DNA from: Sphaerisporangium rubeum
GTDB taxonomy: Bacteria; Actinomycetota; Actinomycetes; Streptosporangiales; Streptosporangiaceae
Length of the DNA: 64,000 nt
Direction: 5' to 3'
Assembly: GCF_014207705.1 (NCBI RefSeq)
Contig: NZ_JACHIU010000001.1
Coordinates: 5,448,501-5,512,500, forward strand
The position numbers and the translations under genes were made by a program. The notes below the pieces were generated by a model, which was not told the DNA's origin, ran no database searches, and was given only the letters and a program-made list of their open reading frames with translations. Below, piece by piece: positions 8,720-61,238 of the stretch; within the stretch, counting starts at the first letter, position 1; the number at the start of each line of letters is the position of its first letter.

Positions 8720-8838
8720 GTCCGGCGGTGTCCTACTCTCCCACACCGTCCCCGGTGCAGTACCATCGGCGCTGGACAGCTTAACTTCCGGGTTCGGAAT
8801 GTAACCGGGTGTTTCCCATCCGCTATGACCGCCGTAAC
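8720..8838 (-). rRNA. rrf: 5S ribosomal RNA
   Basis: About 119 bases. The minus strand starts GTTACGGCGGTCATAGCG, contains the conserved CCGAACCCGGAAGTTAAG segment, and ends with GTAGGACACCGCCGGAC, all standard for actinobacterial 5S. Third gene of the rRNA operon. Ends are set by similarity, good to a few bases. Confidence 0.95.
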
Positions 8839-8963
8839 CCCATGAAACAACCACCACCCCTGCGGGGAGGTTTGCTGTCTCTGAGTCACACAGTGGACGC
8901 GAGCATCACCCAACCAAACACACACACAGCAACTGCAGCATGCAAGGTCGGATAAAAGTTTTG

Positions 8964-14142
<5,179 letters not shown>

Positions 14143-30344: not shown

Positions 30345-30481
30345 CCGCCGGTCACGGCGGTAACGCCAAATCCCAGGCGCCTCGCCAGGGAACCGGGGAC
30401 CCGTGCTTCTCTGGGGTGAATCCACCCATGTGGTGGTAGGGCGACTCCGGCCCGAACCCGTCAGCTAACCCGGTCGGCGCA
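30345..30481 (+). ncRNA. Cyclic di-AMP riboswitch (ydaO/yuaA type)
   Basis: Conserved parts of the ydaO class appear in order: GGTAACGCCAAATCCC, CCAGGGAACCGGGGACCCG, TGGGGTGAATCC, TAGGGCGACTCC, and the highly conserved CCGAACCCGTCAGCTAACC. The 5' GCCGGTCACGGCGG region and 3' CGGTCGGCGC can close the outer stem. It ends just before the Shine-Dalgarno of the next gene, a secreted cell-wall protein. In actinobacteria this riboswitch often precedes wall hydrolase and Rpf genes and usually turns them off at high c-di-AMP (known of the class). Confidence 0.92.
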
Positions 30482-30496
30482 CGAGAGGAGAAGGCC

Positions 30497-31459
30497 CTGC
30501 CGCGCACTTTCGGCGGTTCCGTGGTGACGGCCGCGTGTGTCCTGCTCATGACCGGGCTCGTCCCCGGTCAGGCCGTGGCGGGGGCAACCGCTCCCAAACC
30601 CACGGAGAAGGAGCTCAAGGCGCAGCTCGCGTCGCTCAACAAGAAGGTCGACAAGCTGATCGCCGAGTACGGCGCCAAGCGTGCCGCCGTCGCCAAGGCC
30701 AAGGCGGCGGAGAAGGCGGCACGTGACCGGCTCAAGGCCGCCGAGGAGGCGTACGCCGTGGCCGCCGACGACGTCGGCGACATCGCGCAGCTGAGTTACC
30801 AGGCCGGCGGCATGGGCCTGATCCGGGAACTGGTGACCCCCGGTGGCTCGGCGATGGTCGAGCAGCTCCAGGCCGAGCAGAGCGCACGGCTCAGCGGGTT
30901 CGCCACGGCCCGCGACACGCGCAAGCGCGCCGCCGGGGACGCCGAACGGCTCACCGCCGCGCTGCGCGACGACATGACCGAGCTGAGCGGCAGGCGCAAG
31001 GACGCCGAGAAGCTGATCGGCGAGATCAAGGACAAGCTCGACCGGCTGGTCCCCACCGCTCCCGGCAAGCGCGCCAACGGGGCCTGGGCTCCGGAACTGC
31101 CGTCCGGCAGCGACAACATCACGCCACGGATGAGACTGTTGCGCGCCGAGGTGCGCGACCACTTCACCCTGCGTTTCCCGGTCGGCTGCTACCGGGCCGA
31201 GAACAGCGGTGAACACCCGCTCGGCCGGGCCTGCGACTTCATGATGAGCTCCGGCGGCGCCATGCCCTCGGCCGCGGACGCCGCCCTCGGCGACGAGCTC
31301 GCCGCCTGGGCCATCAAGAACGGCGGCAAACTCGGCGTCAAGTACGTCATCTACCGCCAGCGCATCTACAACCTGGGCTTCCCCGGCTGGCGCGCCATGT
31401 CCGACCGCGGCGGCGTCACGGCCAACCACTTCGACCACGTGCACATCTCGATGTACTGA
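30497..31459 (+). CDS. Secreted coiled-coil cell-wall protein under a c-di-AMP riboswitch
   Basis: 320 residues if started at the CTG at 30497, which has AGGAG 6 bases upstream and gives a signal peptide with a basic N-terminus (MPRTFGGSVVTAACVLLMTG). The usual-codon alternative, GTG at 30521, has no Shine-Dalgarno and no N-terminal charge. After the signal come long Ala/Lys/Glu coiled coils (about 40-190, like the RipA and NlpC/P60 partner helices). A C-terminal domain follows with VGCYRAENSGEHPLGRACDF and HFDHVHISMY, as in the ARB_07466-like/VldE cell-wall family. There is no NlpC/P60 Cys-His pair. Likely wall remodelling outside the membrane, controlled by c-di-AMP. Confidence 0.82.
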   Translation: MPRTFGGSVVTAACVLLMTGLVPGQAVAGATAPKPTEKELKAQLASLNKKVDKLIAEYGAKRAAVAKAKAAEKAARDRLKAAEEAYAVAADDVGDIAQLSYQAGGMGLIRELVTPGGSAMVEQLQAEQSARLSGFATARDTRKRAAGDAERLTAALRDDMTELSGRRKDAEKLIGEIKDKLDRLVPTAPGKRANGAWAPELPSGSDNITPRMRLLRAEVRDHFTLRFPVGCYRAENSGEHPLGRACDFMMSSGGAMPSAADAALGDELAAWAIKNGGKLGVKYVIYRQRIYNLGFPGWRAMSDRGGVTANHFDHVHISMY

Positions 31460-56914: not shown

Positions 56915-58996
56915 TCACGTCGCCTCGCCGGTCTCTCCTGGCCCTTCTCCGAGTGCCGCGTCACGTCGCCTGGCGGTGTCCGCCGGGCCCTCGGCGAGGG
57001 CCGCGGCGATGTCGGGATCGGCGGGGTCGAGGGCCTGCGCGCGGCGCAGGTCGTCGAGTGCCTTCCCTGCGCGGCCCAGGGCACGCAGGGCCATGGCGCG
57101 GTTGAAGTGCGCCTCGGCCCCGGCGCCGAGTTCGATGGCGCGGGTCAGGTCGGCGACGGCCCCCTCCAGGTCGCCGCTGTCGTAGCGCAGCCCGGCGCGG
57201 CTGGCCCAGGCCTGCGCCAGCGCCGGATCGGCCGCCAGCGCCGTGGCGAACGCCGCCTCGGCCGCCTCCTGCCGTCCCGCTGCCGCTTCGAGCTGGCCGA
57301 GCACGCAGCACAGGTGGGGGTCGCCGGGGGCCAGGGCCAGCCCGGCCTCGACGTCCGCGCGTGCCTCGTCCGCCAGACCCAGCCGCAGCAGCAGCCCGGC
57401 ACGGTTGATCCAGGCGTCCAGCCAGCCGGGGTCCAGCTCCAGCACGCGGTCCAGGTCGGCACGCGCTCCCGGCAGGTCGTCCAGGTCGAGCAGCACCTGA
57501 GCGCGGTTGTAGTGCGCCTCCGGCAGCGGCGGGCTCAGCCGCAGCGCCGCCTCGTAGTCGGCGAGCGCGGCCTGCGGCCGTCCCATGCGGAACAGAAGCG
57601 TGCCTCGGTCGAGGTAGGTGTCGGGGTGACCGGGGTCGAGGCCGATCGCGGCGTCCATCTCGGCCAGTGCCTCGGTACGGCGGCCCATGCCCGCGAGCAC
57701 CTGGGCCCGGTTGGCGCGTAGGACCATGCGGTGGAGCGGGTGACGTCCCGGCGGCAAATCCCCGTCCGCCAGCCGGACGGCCTCGTCCACCAGCGCGAGC
57801 GCCGCCTCGTCGTTGCCGCGCCGCGTCTCGATGAGCGCCTTGCCGTTGAGGTCGAAGCCCAGTTTGAACGCGCGGACCACCGGGTCCGGCAGCAGGCTGG
57901 AGATCGCGATGGCCGCGTTGACCCACCGTTCGGCCCGCATGAGGTCGCGCCGCGCCGGGTCCGGGTGGCGAGCGTCCAGCATGGCGGTGCCGTAGGCGGC
58001 GGCCGAGTGCACCTCGGGGTCCACGCTCGCCCCTCGGGCCGCGTCGTACAGGTCGCGTGCCGCGTCCATCTGGCCGAGGCCGGCCAGCGCGGTCGCGGCG
58101 GACTGGACGAACGTCCACCAGCGGGTGGTGCCGGGCTCGGCGAGCCGCAGGCCGCGCCTGCCGAGGTCGGCGGCGGCGTCGAGGAAGCCCTCGGCGAGGC
58201 AGTGGGTGAGCGCCGCGAGCACGGCCCGCGCTCCGGCGCCGCGCGGGTCGGCGCCGTGCTCACGGTGGTAGGGGATGGCGCCGAGGGTGTGGGAGGGATC
58301 ACCTGCGGCGAGCTCGTCGGCACGCCGGTCGTGCAGCCGGGCCCGCTCGGCGGCGGGAAGCGCACGGTACGCCGCGACGGCGCGCGGGTCGTCGGAAGTG
58401 CCGTCGGAGGCCACATAACGCTCGGCGAGGTCCTCCGCGCTCTCCCGGAGGGACGATATGGCCGATATCCGATGGCCTTTGAATGAATCCGGCGCGGGTG
58501 CGAGGGAACAGACGGCAATCGTCAATCGCCGTGGGTCGAAACGCCGCAGGAGTGCGGCGAGCAGTTCACGGTCGGTGGCGTCGGCCTCATGCATGTCGGT
58601 GACGACGACGGCGCCGAGCGGCACCCGGCAGTCCCGGACGAATTCGGCTATTCCATTGGCGATGCGTGACGTGCGCCGCGCACCCGGCACCAGGATGCGC
58701 TCGTCCTCAGGCAGCATCTCGTGCAGCGGAGTGTGCCGCGCGGCCACCTGGCCGCGCAGGTCCAGCGCCGCCGCCCTGATCTCGATGTCGTGCGCCGCGA
58801 CCACCTCCGGCGCCTGCTCCGCGCAGGCCGGGAACATGGCGCGGAGCAGGGTTCCACCGAACGTGTAGGGCCCTCGCCGCCGGCGGTGCGCGTCGACGAC
58901 GAGGACCGGAGCGGGAAGGTCCAGGCCCGCGGCCAGGGTCAGCCGCGCACCGGACGATCCGCTGTGGATCCACGTGTGGTCAGGGTGAGGGCTCAC
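56915..58996 (-). CDS. TPR protein with P-loop-less NTPase-like N-terminus, coupled to a small-peptide gene
   Basis: 693 residues from the GTG at 58996, whose G-T-G overlaps the stop of the 24-codon peptide gene (GTGA), so it is translationally coupled. The frame is open further upstream, but there it overlaps the peptide gene and has no Shine-Dalgarno. Residues 1-165 resemble a regulatory STAND/LAL-type ATPase: VVTDMHEADATDRELLAALL (131-150) looks like a degenerate Walker B and sensor region, but no Walker A GxxxxGKT exists. After about 370 come many TPR-like repeats (for example EALAEMDAAIGLDPGHPDTY). A partner- or peptide-binding role is likely; the function is unknown. Confidence 0.72.
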   Translation of the reverse strand: MSPHPDHTWIHSGSSGARLTLAAGLDLPAPVLVVDAHRRRRGPYTFGGTLLRAMFPACAEQAPEVVAAHDIEIRAAALDLRGQVAARHTPLHEMLPEDERILVPGARRTSRIANGIAEFVRDCRVPLGAVVVTDMHEADATDRELLAALLRRFDPRRLTIAVCSLAPAPDSFKGHRISAISSLRESAEDLAERYVASDGTSDDPRAVAAYRALPAAERARLHDRRADELAAGDPSHTLGAIPYHREHGADPRGAGARAVLAALTHCLAEGFLDAAADLGRRGLRLAEPGTTRWWTFVQSAATALAGLGQMDAARDLYDAARGASVDPEVHSAAAYGTAMLDARHPDPARRDLMRAERWVNAAIAISSLLPDPVVRAFKLGFDLNGKALIETRRGNDEAALALVDEAVRLADGDLPPGRHPLHRMVLRANRAQVLAGMGRRTEALAEMDAAIGLDPGHPDTYLDRGTLLFRMGRPQAALADYEAALRLSPPLPEAHYNRAQVLLDLDDLPGARADLDRVLELDPGWLDAWINRAGLLLRLGLADEARADVEAGLALAPGDPHLCCVLGQLEAAAGRQEAAEAAFATALAADPALAQAWASRAGLRYDSGDLEGAVADLTRAIELGAGAEAHFNRAMALRALGRAGKALDDLRRAQALDPADPDIAAALAEGPADTARRRDAALGEGPGETGEAT

Positions 58997-59067
58997 CCTT
59001 TGTGAATCGCGCTGGCCGCGCCGCTCAAGCGGGCCATACCTGGCTTGCGAATAACGATCTTTTTCAT
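58993..59067 (-). CDS. 24-residue lysine-rich peptide, candidate RiPP-like precursor or signal peptide
   Basis: The minus strand has GAGGAGG 6 bases before ATG, then 24 codons ending in TGA. The peptide begins MKKIVIRKPGMARLSGAASA and ends IHKG. Its first codons (AAA AAG ATC GTT ATT) are unusually AT-rich for this genome, as in many small peptide genes. It is too short for ordinary ORF calling. Its stop overlaps the start of the TPR gene (GTGA). There are no Cys; Ser and His occur near the C-terminus. It may be a ribosomally made peptide that is modified or sensed by the downstream protein, or simply a leader peptide. Function is inferred from layout only. Confidence 0.62.
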   Translation of the reverse strand: MKKIVIRKPGMARLSGAASAIHKG

Positions 59068-59111
59068 CCCGGGCCTCCTCGGGTCGATCGCTCATATGAG
59101 CCGAAAGACCC

Positions 59112-59140
59112 AATTAACCCCGATCGCGGATAATTCGCAA
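59112..59140 (-). promoter_or_regulatory. Candidate promoter of the peptide-TPR unit
   Basis: On the minus strand TTGCGA (59135-59140) and TTAATT (59112-59117) are spaced exactly 17 bases, in an AT-rich 105-base gap after the GNAT gene. A 10-base palindrome CTCATATGAG follows (about 59091-59100). Fits a separate promoter, though upstream genes could also read through. Confidence 0.45.
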
Positions 59141-59172: not shown

Positions 59173-59673
59173 TCAATGGTGCCCCAAGACCTCCGACGAG
59201 AATCGCGTGGTCACCGGCTTCTCACCGTAAACCACCATAAGTCCACCCTGTTGTTCGCGGCGGACCTCCTGCCAGCCGAACTTGCGGTACAGCTCGAGCG
59301 CCGCCCCCTGCGCCAGGGTCGTGTCGCCCCGCAGCCAGGTGTAGCCGAGCCGGGCCGCGGCCTCCTCCAGCGCCTCCAGCATGCGGGTGGCGAACCCGCG
59401 CCGCTGGAAATCGGGATGGACCCGCAGCCGGCACACCTCGGCGGTCTCGTCGTCGACCCGCCGCAGCGCACCCATCGCCATGATCCGGCCGTCCACCTCG
59501 CCGACCAGGAACTCGCCCCGGTCGGCCAGGTAGATCTCGATGATGCGCGGCATGTCGTCCTCGTAGTACACGCCGTCCCCGGCGACGATGCCGACCTGTG
59601 CCAGGCATGTGCGGTGCAGTTCCCAGACGGCGTCAAGGTCCGACCAGCGATACCGCCTGAGCCGCATCGTCAT
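59173..59673 (-). CDS. GNAT family N-acetyltransferase
   Basis: 166 residues, ATG at 59673 overlapping the stop of the preceding regulator gene (TGATG). The acetyl-CoA loop is CRLRVHPDFQRRGFATRML (about 85-105). The C-terminal YRKFGWQEVRREQQGG motif is normal. Single GNAT domain; substrate unknown. It is followed, after 105 bases, by the peptide-TPR unit, so an acetyl-modification role there is possible but speculative. Confidence 0.83.
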   Translation of the reverse strand: MTMRLRRYRWSDLDAVWELHRTCLAQVGIVAGDGVYYEDDMPRIIEIYLADRGEFLVGEVDGRIMAMGALRRVDDETAEVCRLRVHPDFQRRGFATRMLEALEEAAARLGYTWLRGDTTLAQGAALELYRKFGWQEVRREQQGGLMVVYGEKPVTTRFSSEVLGHH

Positions 59674-61238
59674 CAAACCTCGGCTCCCATGGGGTTCTGC
59701 GGTTCCGGCTCCTTGGGTGCGGTGACCTTGGCCTGGAACTCCTTCAGGCCGGGGATGTCCCCGCAGCGCAGCTGGATGGCGCGGGCCAGGTCGACCGCGC
59801 GCCGGATGATGATGTCGGTGCGGAAGGAGTCACCGACCCGCCGTATGGCGTCCTCACCGATGCGCAGCGCCTCCTCGCCGTCCCCCTCCAGCAGGCGGCA
59901 GTGCGCGCGGTCGAACCGGATCAGGGTCTGGTCGAGCAGGTCGCCGTCGTACTTCTCCAGCGCCTGCTCCAGGATCAGGTCGGCCTCCAGGGTCTGGCCG
60001 AGCCTGGCCAGCGCGTCTCCCTGGTGGAAGTACAGCTGGCGCTCGGTGTAGCCGAAGACGGTGTCCTCCTGCTGCGCGGGTGCCATCTGCGCGAACGCGG
60101 CCCGCGCGCGGGCCAGTGCGCGCTTGGCCTGGTCGACGACGTCCTTCTTGCCGCCGGCGTTGGCGAGCATGGACAGGGCACGCGCCTCGACGACCGGGGC
60201 CATGGCCTTGGCGGCACACGGGGTCTGGCCGGCCAGGTCGCGGCTCTTCTTGGCGAGCGTGAGCGCCTCACGCGGGTCGCCGTAGAACAGCGGGACCAGG
60301 GCCTCCCGCGCGGTGACCCAGGCGCGCAGCGCGCGGTCGCCGGTCTCGTCGGCGGCGCTGCGCGAGGTGCGGAAGAACGACCGGGCCAGGCGCTGGTCAC
60401 CCAGGTCGATCATGATGATGCCGGCGAGGCCGGACAGGCGCGCGGCGAGCGCGCACAGGCGTTCCTGGAGGTCGATGGGCTGGTGGCGCTCCATCGCCTG
60501 CCGGACGGTGCTGAACTCCAGCAGCACGTCGCACAGCTGGCGCATCGGCGGGGTGTTCATGTACTGGCGGCCGAAGGACGCCGCCGACTCCTCCCAGTGG
60601 TCCAGCATCGCCGGCGAAACGGTCGTCGAGACCAGGGTCTCGTCCATGCGGCGCCTGATGTTCTCGGCCGCATTGATCACTTCGGGGTTCAGCGGCACCG
60701 AGGCGCCGGCGATGACCCCCAGCAAAGTCCTGCGTAACACGTTCTCGTCCTCCTCACCCCCGTCCGCGGACGGATCGCCGGGTGGTTTCACCCAAAGCTC
60801 GCGAGAATCGGGGGAATTGTCGGGTTTGGCCTCTTGGAGGCCGCCCCGCACGACGCCGGGCATGCGGTGGCCGTGACCACAGATGCATGGCCCGTCGTAG
60901 CCGAGGGCGACCGGTTCGACCCGGTAGACGGAGCACAAATAGTGGAGATACTCGGGACCCGGCCTCTTGAGACCGCTCTCGTACGCGCTGAGGAGCGTCT
61001 CGCCGATGCCGGGCATCGGTTTGCCGTCGCGTTCGAACAACGCACGGACCTGCTCGATGACGTCGGCAAGCGCGATACCATGAGCCAGCCGGTGAGATTT
61101 AATGCGTGTTGTCCCGAAATGGGGACCACACTCTTCGTGAATCTCCTCGGCGATTCGCGCCGTGGTCCGACCCACCGCGAGCCCACGCGCCCGGGTGCGC
61201 CGCGCCAACTCCGTTTCCTTGTGCTGTCTGCCGGACAT
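59673..61238 (-). CDS. XRE-type regulator with C-terminal TPR-like domain
   Basis: 521 residues from the ATG at 61238 (GGAGGGG upstream); the ORF extends further without homology. HTH-like region about 45-115 with THR-like helices (TRIKSHRLAHGIALADVIEQ and LLSAYESGLKRPGPEYLHYL), then a long helical TPR-type region to the end. This is the actinomycete class of large XRE regulators with a TPR sensor, often controlling nearby or secondary-metabolic genes. It is first in an operon with the GNAT gene. A role in controlling the following peptide unit is inferred from position only. Confidence 0.78.
   Translation of the reverse strand: MSGRQHKETELARRTRARGLAVGRTTARIAEEIHEECGPHFGTTRIKSHRLAHGIALADVIEQVRALFERDGKPMPGIGETLLSAYESGLKRPGPEYLHYLCSVYRVEPVALGYDGPCICGHGHRMPGVVRGGLQEAKPDNSPDSRELWVKPPGDPSADGGEEDENVLRRTLLGVIAGASVPLNPEVINAAENIRRRMDETLVSTTVSPAMLDHWEESAASFGRQYMNTPPMRQLCDVLLEFSTVRQAMERHQPIDLQERLCALAARLSGLAGIIMIDLGDQRLARSFFRTSRSAADETGDRALRAWVTAREALVPLFYGDPREALTLAKKSRDLAGQTPCAAKAMAPVVEARALSMLANAGGKKDVVDQAKRALARARAAFAQMAPAQQEDTVFGYTERQLYFHQGDALARLGQTLEADLILEQALEKYDGDLLDQTLIRFDRAHCRLLEGDGEEALRIGEDAIRRVGDSFRTDIIIRRAVDLARAIQLRCGDIPGLKEFQAKVTAPKEPEPQNPMGAEV

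Follow-up and report, generated by a model that had tools for sequence, protein, structure and literature searches.

A 24-codon peptide gene paired with a pseudo-NTPase/TPR protein in Sphaerisporangium rubeum, and its probable descent from a RiPP-like cassette

What is the function of a gene of 24 codons whose stop codon overlaps the start codon of a gene encoding a large TPR protein? This question is raised by a 64,000-nucleotide stretch of the Sphaerisporangium rubeum genome (contig NZ_JACHIU010000001.1, positions 5,448,501 to 5,512,500; hereafter the window), in which a peptide, MKKIVIRKPGMARLSGAASAIHKG, is encoded directly ahead of a 693-aa protein. An earlier reading made from the sequence alone had described a promoter-like element, a Shine-Dalgarno sequence, the 24-codon peptide gene, the GTGA overlap, and the 693-residue protein, and all of these are present in the sequence and the gene call. 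Comparison with homologues indicates that this conserved peptide/TPR gene pair of soil actinomycetes is real and apparently undescribed: five peptide strings had no match in the literature texts searched, and no system of a TPR protein, an M50 protease, and a precursor appeared in titles or abstract starts among the matches listed, subscription journals being outside the scope of both searches. We consider it fairly probable that the pair is a two-gene module derived from a cassette for ribosomally synthesized and post-translationally modified peptides (RiPPs), in which the TPR groove would hold the peptide as its ligand or client.

To collect relatives, an alignment of the TPR protein was used as query against genome contigs. 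This search yielded 297 relatives, and the 80 with the best matches were retained; a scan of the contigs with the single TPR protein as query returned no relatives. The TPR protein was found in 23 of the 60 relatives searched, and a pattern scan located MKK-type peptides before most of these 23. A profile was made from 12 peptides found earlier, some of which share their genome with Sphaerisporangium loci of the set. It detected a same-strand peptide gene upstream of the TPR gene in 79 of these 80 named relatives; the match in L177 had an E-value of only 0.011.

The loci represent three ARRANGEMENTS of peptide/TPR loci, designated A1, A2, and B. Type A1, to which the window belongs, is a GTGA-coupled pair in a conserved chromosomal neighbourhood. 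In type A2, the peptide resembles MKKVIVHKPGTVxLSGAASxKHxG, is not coupled to the TPR gene, and is found at other sites. In type B, a peptide with MKKIxIRKAGPVRLT followed by a variable core precedes a gene encoding a membrane-type HExxH protein of about 410 aa, which in turn precedes the TPR gene. The sequence-only reading had proposed to check whether a short open reading frame (ORF) beginning MKK[IV] always overlaps the start of homologous TPR genes, and had taken the two products to be translationally coupled. The short ORF is there in nearly all of the 80 relatives, but the overlap is a property of A1, where 43 of 44 named loci have a four-base overlap that opens a frame of more than 500 aa; A2 pairs are uncoupled and B pairs have the protease-like gene between them, so coupling is not general.

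The same reading had made its proposal depend on protein-level constraint on the peptide codons, and constraint was found. In the peptide sets (45 A1, 19 A2, and 16 B, including the window), the ratio of nonsynonymous to synonymous differences (pN/pS) was 0.20 for nine Sphaerisporangium peptides, 0.25 for 39 unique A1 peptides, and 0.30 for 17 A2 peptides, A1 and A2 being sorted for this purpose by the peptide's own ending; for type B leader codons it was 0.41, in a set that includes two A2 peptides. A chance ORF was rejected on the basis of this constraint and of the upstream homologues. Among 249 genomes of the family, which are related by descent so that the counts are not independent events, the peptide profile matched in 136 (E ≤ 0.05) and the TPR profile in 129 (E ≤ 1e-90). 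With a peptide threshold of E ≤ 1e-3, 120 genomes had both, none the peptide only, nine the TPR protein only, and 120 neither; at E ≤ 0.05 these numbers were 126, 10, 3, and 110, and the ten peptide-only genomes were all weak matches (E 0.002-0.05). In 396 genomes of the phylum, the peptide profile matched in 26 (E ≤ 0.05), with E-values below 1e-4 only in the S. rubeum genome itself, G463, and G646; the other 23 matches (E 3.7e-4 to 0.05) were taken as chance. These comparisons support a peptide whose amino-acid sequence is conserved and whose occurrence is linked to that of the TPR family.

The origin of the pair is suggested by type B. Neighbouring genes were compared in 116 loci selected by hand (60 A1, 32 A2, and 24 B). 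In this set, a peptide, a protein with an RRE-like domain (the RiPP leader-binding fold described below) and M50-like features, and a TPR protein occur together in 24 of 24 B loci, which is partly the criterion by which they were sorted. The S. rubeum genome itself holds both A1 and B: about 1.2 Mb from the window, cassette L089 (G000:C1 4324682-4328242) encodes, in this order, the peptide MKKIQIRKAGPVRLTAAACTVYKKTN, the RRE-M50-like protein, the TPR protein, and an old-yellow-enzyme (OYE) protein, with a divergent SARP regulator gene. Type B was also found in Streptomyces, Streptacidiphilus, and Streptantibioticus. In the tree of TPR proteins, A1 forms one clade and A2 another, and both together are nested within B. 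This nesting makes the window pair look like a cassette of RiPP-like type that has lost its protease and whose core has become frozen. The RRE-M50-like protein occurs in 22 of the 249 family genomes (E ≤ 1e-80), always with the TPR protein, and is absent from 107 of the 129 TPR-bearing genomes; most genomes with A-type pairs thus lack the protease gene.

The peptides show a corresponding layout. In B, leader positions 2-4, 7-8, 10, 12-15, and 18 are conserved and the core is variable apart from a Tyr near position 22; in A1 and A2, the C-terminal part is nearly invariant. To compare residues, 161 loci, several of them from the same genomes and many fetched because of their peptide, were typed without reference to the peptide, B by the RRE-M50 profile and A1 or A2 by the better-scoring TPR clade profile; position 22 is His in every unique A1 peptide (46/46) and every unique A2 peptide (24/24), whereas 19 of 22 unique B peptides have Tyr there and the other three have it at 21 or 23. 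The tree, the leader, and the predicted fold of the membrane protein support a RiPP-like ancestry of the window pair, so that the RiPP link suggested by the sequence-only reading is sustained, as ancestry, by the B cassettes.

Some B cassettes depart from the usual form. In L098 (9510-9715), two tandem, near-identical precursors with cores ending in QPLYFCYE and QPLYVCYQ precede a single RRE-M50 gene. An IS-flanked, divergent cassette is located on a linear plasmid of Streptomyces sp. NBC_01450 (L196, 6725-10368). Distant relatives of the RRE-M50-like protein are encoded in L193 and on a Streptomyces plasmid (L197, 5766-8191; about 31% in L197), where the gene lies beside one for a ThiF-family adenylyltransferase and no TPR protein is annotated; this may be another peptide system.

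An N-terminal β3-α3 domain is seen when the membrane protein of type B is modelled with AlphaFold (pLDDT 83.6). Its first PDB matches are the leader-binding RREs of lasso-peptide systems (TbiB1, probability 0.98) and the RRE-bearing enzymes ThcOx, TigE, and McbBCD; E-values of these RRE-type matches range from 0.3 to 1.8, and no PDB match of the domain reaches 0.001. Model comparison suggests an RRE-like fold. The membrane half had no credible PDB match, and a profile search of solved structures with the M50-like protein gave nothing useful. The HExxH residues H175, E176, and H179 are invariant in A3 and A6 and fall within model helix 157-185, whose placement in the membrane is inferred. The Pfam M50 family (PF02163) matched one of three proteins at E 0.066 and the other two not at all; because this is far below the cut-off, "M50-like" is the safe name.

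Epipeptides and pearlins are RiPP systems with M50 proteases, as described in a review (PMC10885120). From what is given there, type B resembles the epipeptides (EpeX with the membrane M50 protease EpeP) in pairing a short precursor with a dedicated membrane M50-like protease, and the pearlins (TglG/TmoG) in having a membrane M50-like protease that would act on a short scaffold peptide. Unlike in epipeptide systems, the peptide is accompanied throughout the 24 B loci only by the RRE-M50 and TPR families (no profile search was made for a radical-SAM epimerase), the RRE-like domain is fused to the protease, and the A types lack the protease. Unlike in pearlin systems, the B loci do not share any ligase family (PEARLs were not profile-searched), the peptide is different, and there is a TPR partner. 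The N-terminal fold is predicted to resemble lasso-peptide B1 proteins such as TbiB1, but in type B it is fused to a membrane protein, and no further enzyme is common to the B loci (the lasso cyclase was not profile-searched).

This ancestry leaves room for an alternative in which the peptide of the A types has remained a RiPP precursor. Unlinked enzymes would modify it, cut it, or both, the TPR protein would serve as scaffold for maturation, and the product would be a small peptide that is secreted or cofactor-like. The leader/core layout and RRE-like domain of B would fit such a role, as would flavin enzymes near some B cassettes (OYE genes in six B loci, flavin reductase genes in five B and one A2; no modifying enzyme is common to the A1 loci) and an MFS transporter family in seven A2 and four A1 loci. 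It is opposed by the absence of the RRE-M50 protein from most TPR-bearing genomes and by the A core, which is nearly invariant, has no Tyr and, except in a few peptides, no Cys, unlike a diversifying product. Furthermore, the gene families that A1 loci widely share are syntenic neighbours. We regard this alternative as unlikely, while allowing it an appreciable chance.

The 693-aa protein gave an AlphaFold2 model with a pLDDT of 92.7, consisting of an α/β N-terminal domain (residues 1 to about 200) of putative degenerate AAA_16/STAND-like type and a TPR superhelix (about 254-682), in which a Pfam scan found many repeats; VIA-align covered mostly residues 254-676. The AAA_16 match of the window protein (E 0.015) is below threshold, and four of five TPR proteins scanned gave such matches at E 0.0003-0.015, all under the gathering score. 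The Walker A lysine is absent, GPYT..G replacing GxGK[ST], and homologues keep AHRRxRGPYT at this place; the residual string LVVENLHEAD resembles a Walker B region. The earlier description of an N-terminus without a P-loop and putatively ATPase-like, followed by TPRs, holds. An NTPase-like N-terminus with TPRs recalls STAND/LuxR-type AAA_16 regulators and SARPs, from which the protein differs by the missing lysine, its own AHRRxRGPYT motif, and the lack of a DNA-binding domain in the scan. The first Foldseek match of the TPR half is the superhelix of O-GlcNAc transferase (OGT), with a conserved Asn series; in OGT, the Asn ladder binds the peptide backbone. Unlike OGT, the protein has no glycosyltransferase domain, it carries the pseudo-NTPase-like domain, and many other TPR superhelices match nearly as well. 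A defence system was rejected since PADLOC found nothing for the window protein and gave two weak matches for the type B TPR protein, and a phage origin was rejected, the single PHROG match being confined to the TPR repeats. A TPR paralogue of 567-604 aa with a related RGPYAG-like motif is encoded in L282, L286, and L287, with no peptide gene detectable in the stretch examined.

A TPR protein with a short peptide also brings to mind RRNPP-type signalling, in which the matured peptide would leave and re-enter cells and the TPR protein would be its intracellular receptor. SHP-Eep-Rgg, as described in PMC7564271, offers the parallel of a short peptide, a membrane zinc protease (with a similar protein in type B only), and a TPR protein. 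The C-terminal TPR domain seen by Pfam, model, and Foldseek resembles that of the receptors, and a SARP regulator family is present in seven B loci. However, the Pfam scan of the window protein found no helix-turn-helix or other DNA-binding family, a pseudo-NTPase-like domain standing in its place, and the modelled N-terminus is α/β, unlike the helix-turn-helix or phosphatase-type effector domains of RRNPP receptors; the peptide is basic and has no hydrophobic or Sec-type segment; and no transporter family is common to most A1 loci (EamA in 14 of 60, MFS in 4 of 60), so that a conserved exporter is missing beside A1. Signalling of this type appears improbable.

Ten of 80 neighbourhoods fetched for comparison (L099, L101, L235, L238, L239, L244, L246, L247, L248, and L256) contain the NsdA-family, GNAT, and peptide genes of A1 with no TPR gene after the peptide. 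These orphan peptides are still constrained (pN/pS 0.34), although the one in L235 has lost its stop codon and may be decaying. At another site, all ten genomes carry an A2 TPR gene accompanied by a peptide of its own. Position 7 is His in all ten orphan peptides and in 24 of 24 unique A2 peptides; among the 46 unique A1 peptides that have their TPR gene, it is Arg in 43. In an A2 TPR tree of 17 genomes, in which two outgroup rows were not cleanly grouped, the orphan state is scattered, and well-supported branches force at least four label changes. Since the orphan survives with the A2 residue His7 rather than Arg7 while the A2 receptor remains in the genome, these data are suggestive of repeated loss of the cis partner and of a peptide acting in trans.

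The orphans also bear on the idea that one partner restrains the other, the peptide the TPR protein or the reverse, as in a self-control or toxin-antitoxin-like pair. The tight pairing, the A1 overlap, and the lack of peptide-only genomes at E ≤ 1e-3 are in its favour; the ten loci with the peptide alone at the old site and a TPR gene without a detected peptide (L179) are not, no toxin-like domain was recognised by Pfam or NCBIfam, and the PADLOC result was negative, which together make it very improbable. Least probable, with only a slight chance, is a leader peptide or upstream ORF that merely sets translation of the TPR gene, an idea drawn from the GTGA coupling in A1 and rejected for the family as a whole, given the amino-acid constraint and related peptides that are uncoupled (A2), two genes away (B), or without a TPR gene beside them (the orphans).

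We therefore return to a module of RiPP-like descent. In the ancestral B form, a short precursor would consist of a leader, MKKIxVRKxGxVRLTxxA, and a variable core with a Tyr near position 22; the RRE-like domain of the membrane M50-like protease would bind it and cleave it near the leader end, and the pseudo-NTPase/TPR protein would be the third partner. Loss of the protease would have followed in the A lineage, with the core fixed, Tyr22 changed to His22, and the length set at 24 aa in nearly all peptides; we therefore propose that the small peptide now functions in its entirety. It would most likely be bound in extended form by the TPR superhelix with its conserved asparagine series, the degenerate NTPase domain may change partner or conformation upon binding, and the GTGA overlap of A1 would provide peptide and TPR protein in a fixed ratio. 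Peptide binding, the direction of its effect, cleavage, and any regulatory output are what we infer. More tentatively, and as a serious if doubtful possibility, this may be a new intracellular system, in which a RiPP-type cassette became a protease-free, core-frozen micro-peptide that serves whole as the dedicated, trans-acting ligand of a pseudo-NTPase/TPR receptor; type B would then be an undescribed RiPP class in which an RRE fused to an M50 protease works with a TPR protein.

Several points weigh against this interpretation. The polarity from B to A depends on a long outgroup branch and calls for caution. In L196, the most divergent cassette, the likely precursor lies inside an annotated 57-aa ORF (probably with too early a start) and has neither Tyr nor Cys, so that Tyr22 is unlikely to have a universal role. 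The HExxH motif and membrane-type helices are the basis for assigning the protein to M50. At the sequence level, the case for an N-terminal NTPase domain is weak: hhalign of the domain against an AAA_16-type protein gave a probability of 0.6, and a PDB profile search found no match. The OGT likeness is not specific, as the TPR half matched 447 PDB chains at E ≤ 0.001, which among the 50 listed were largely other TPR or TPR-like proteins. Finally, L179 has the TPR gene with no peptide detected by the profile.

The features of the locus are given in Table 1. The promoter-like hexamers were compared across 19 aligned A1 upstream regions, the window's own among them, hand-chosen from 45; columns count as conserved at ≥80% and not in every row. 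No Pfam or NCBIfam model matches the peptide, although such scans have little power for a 24-mer.

Table 1. Positions in the window of the peptide operon features and of the two upstream neighbouring genes.
Feature	Positions	Strand	Basis
-35-like hexamer TTGCGA, peptide operon	59135-59140	(-)	T.GCG columns ≥80% conserved, 19 aligned upstream regions
-10-like hexamer TTAATT, 17-nt spacer to -35	59112-59117	(-)	ATA.TT columns ≥80% conserved, 19 aligned upstream regions
Shine-Dalgarno GAGGAGG	59074-59080	(-)	Sequence; purine-rich Shine-Dalgarno-like stretches also precede homologous peptides
24-codon peptide gene, ATG..TGA, MKKIVIRKPGMARLSGAASAIHKG, type A1	59067-58993	(-)	Sequence, homologues, pN/pS
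GTGA stop/start overlap of peptide and TPR genes	58996-58993	(-)	Sequence; 43/44 named A1 loci
693-aa pseudo-NTPase/TPR protein, GTG start	58996-56915	(-)	Pfam scan, AlphaFold2 model, Foldseek
GNAT acetyltransferase, upstream neighbour, membership in system not supported	59173-59673	(-)	Gene content comparison
NsdA-family TPR-like regulator, upstream neighbour, membership in system not supported	59673-61238	(-)	NF053720, 142 bits, cut-off 75

The GNAT gene and a large "XRE-TPR regulator" had been suggested to complete the system. The regulator is indeed TPR-like, and its identity is that of the NsdA family. Within the 116 loci, A1 has the GNAT gene in 59 of 60 and the NsdA gene in 60 of 60, together with other syntenic genes; the GNAT family is absent from A2 and B, and the NsdA-like family has one match in A2 and none in B. 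Outside this set, L236 and L249 have only one of the two genes. Among 20 TPR-negative family genomes, a confounded control, the GNAT gene was found in only two, at neither locus with the peptide. Because a GNAT gene and an NsdA-like gene stand side by side without a peptide in a genome lacking any peptide or TPR match (L288), and because both are absent from B, we treat them as neighbours; the peptide also has its own promoter-like element, and the association looks like synteny, so that their proposed membership is not supported.

An EamA gene is inserted between the GNAT and peptide genes in L095 (4911-9707), which also has two ABC-transporter genes, and in L241 (1806-3143). Elsewhere in the window, we observed an rRNA operon with 5S, large-subunit, and small-subunit genes at 8720-14142 on the (-) strand and a c-di-AMP riboswitch at 30354-30494, before a gene at 30521.

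Our comparison indicates that a 24-codon gene, widespread among the Streptosporangiaceae, is genuine and is linked to a single large TPR protein. Loss of the protease and freezing of the core in a RiPP-like cassette would offer a handle on how precursor peptides may become intracellular ligands, and the B form, with its fused RRE-M50-like protein and mostly Tyr- or Cys-bearing cores, is a candidate RiPP class.

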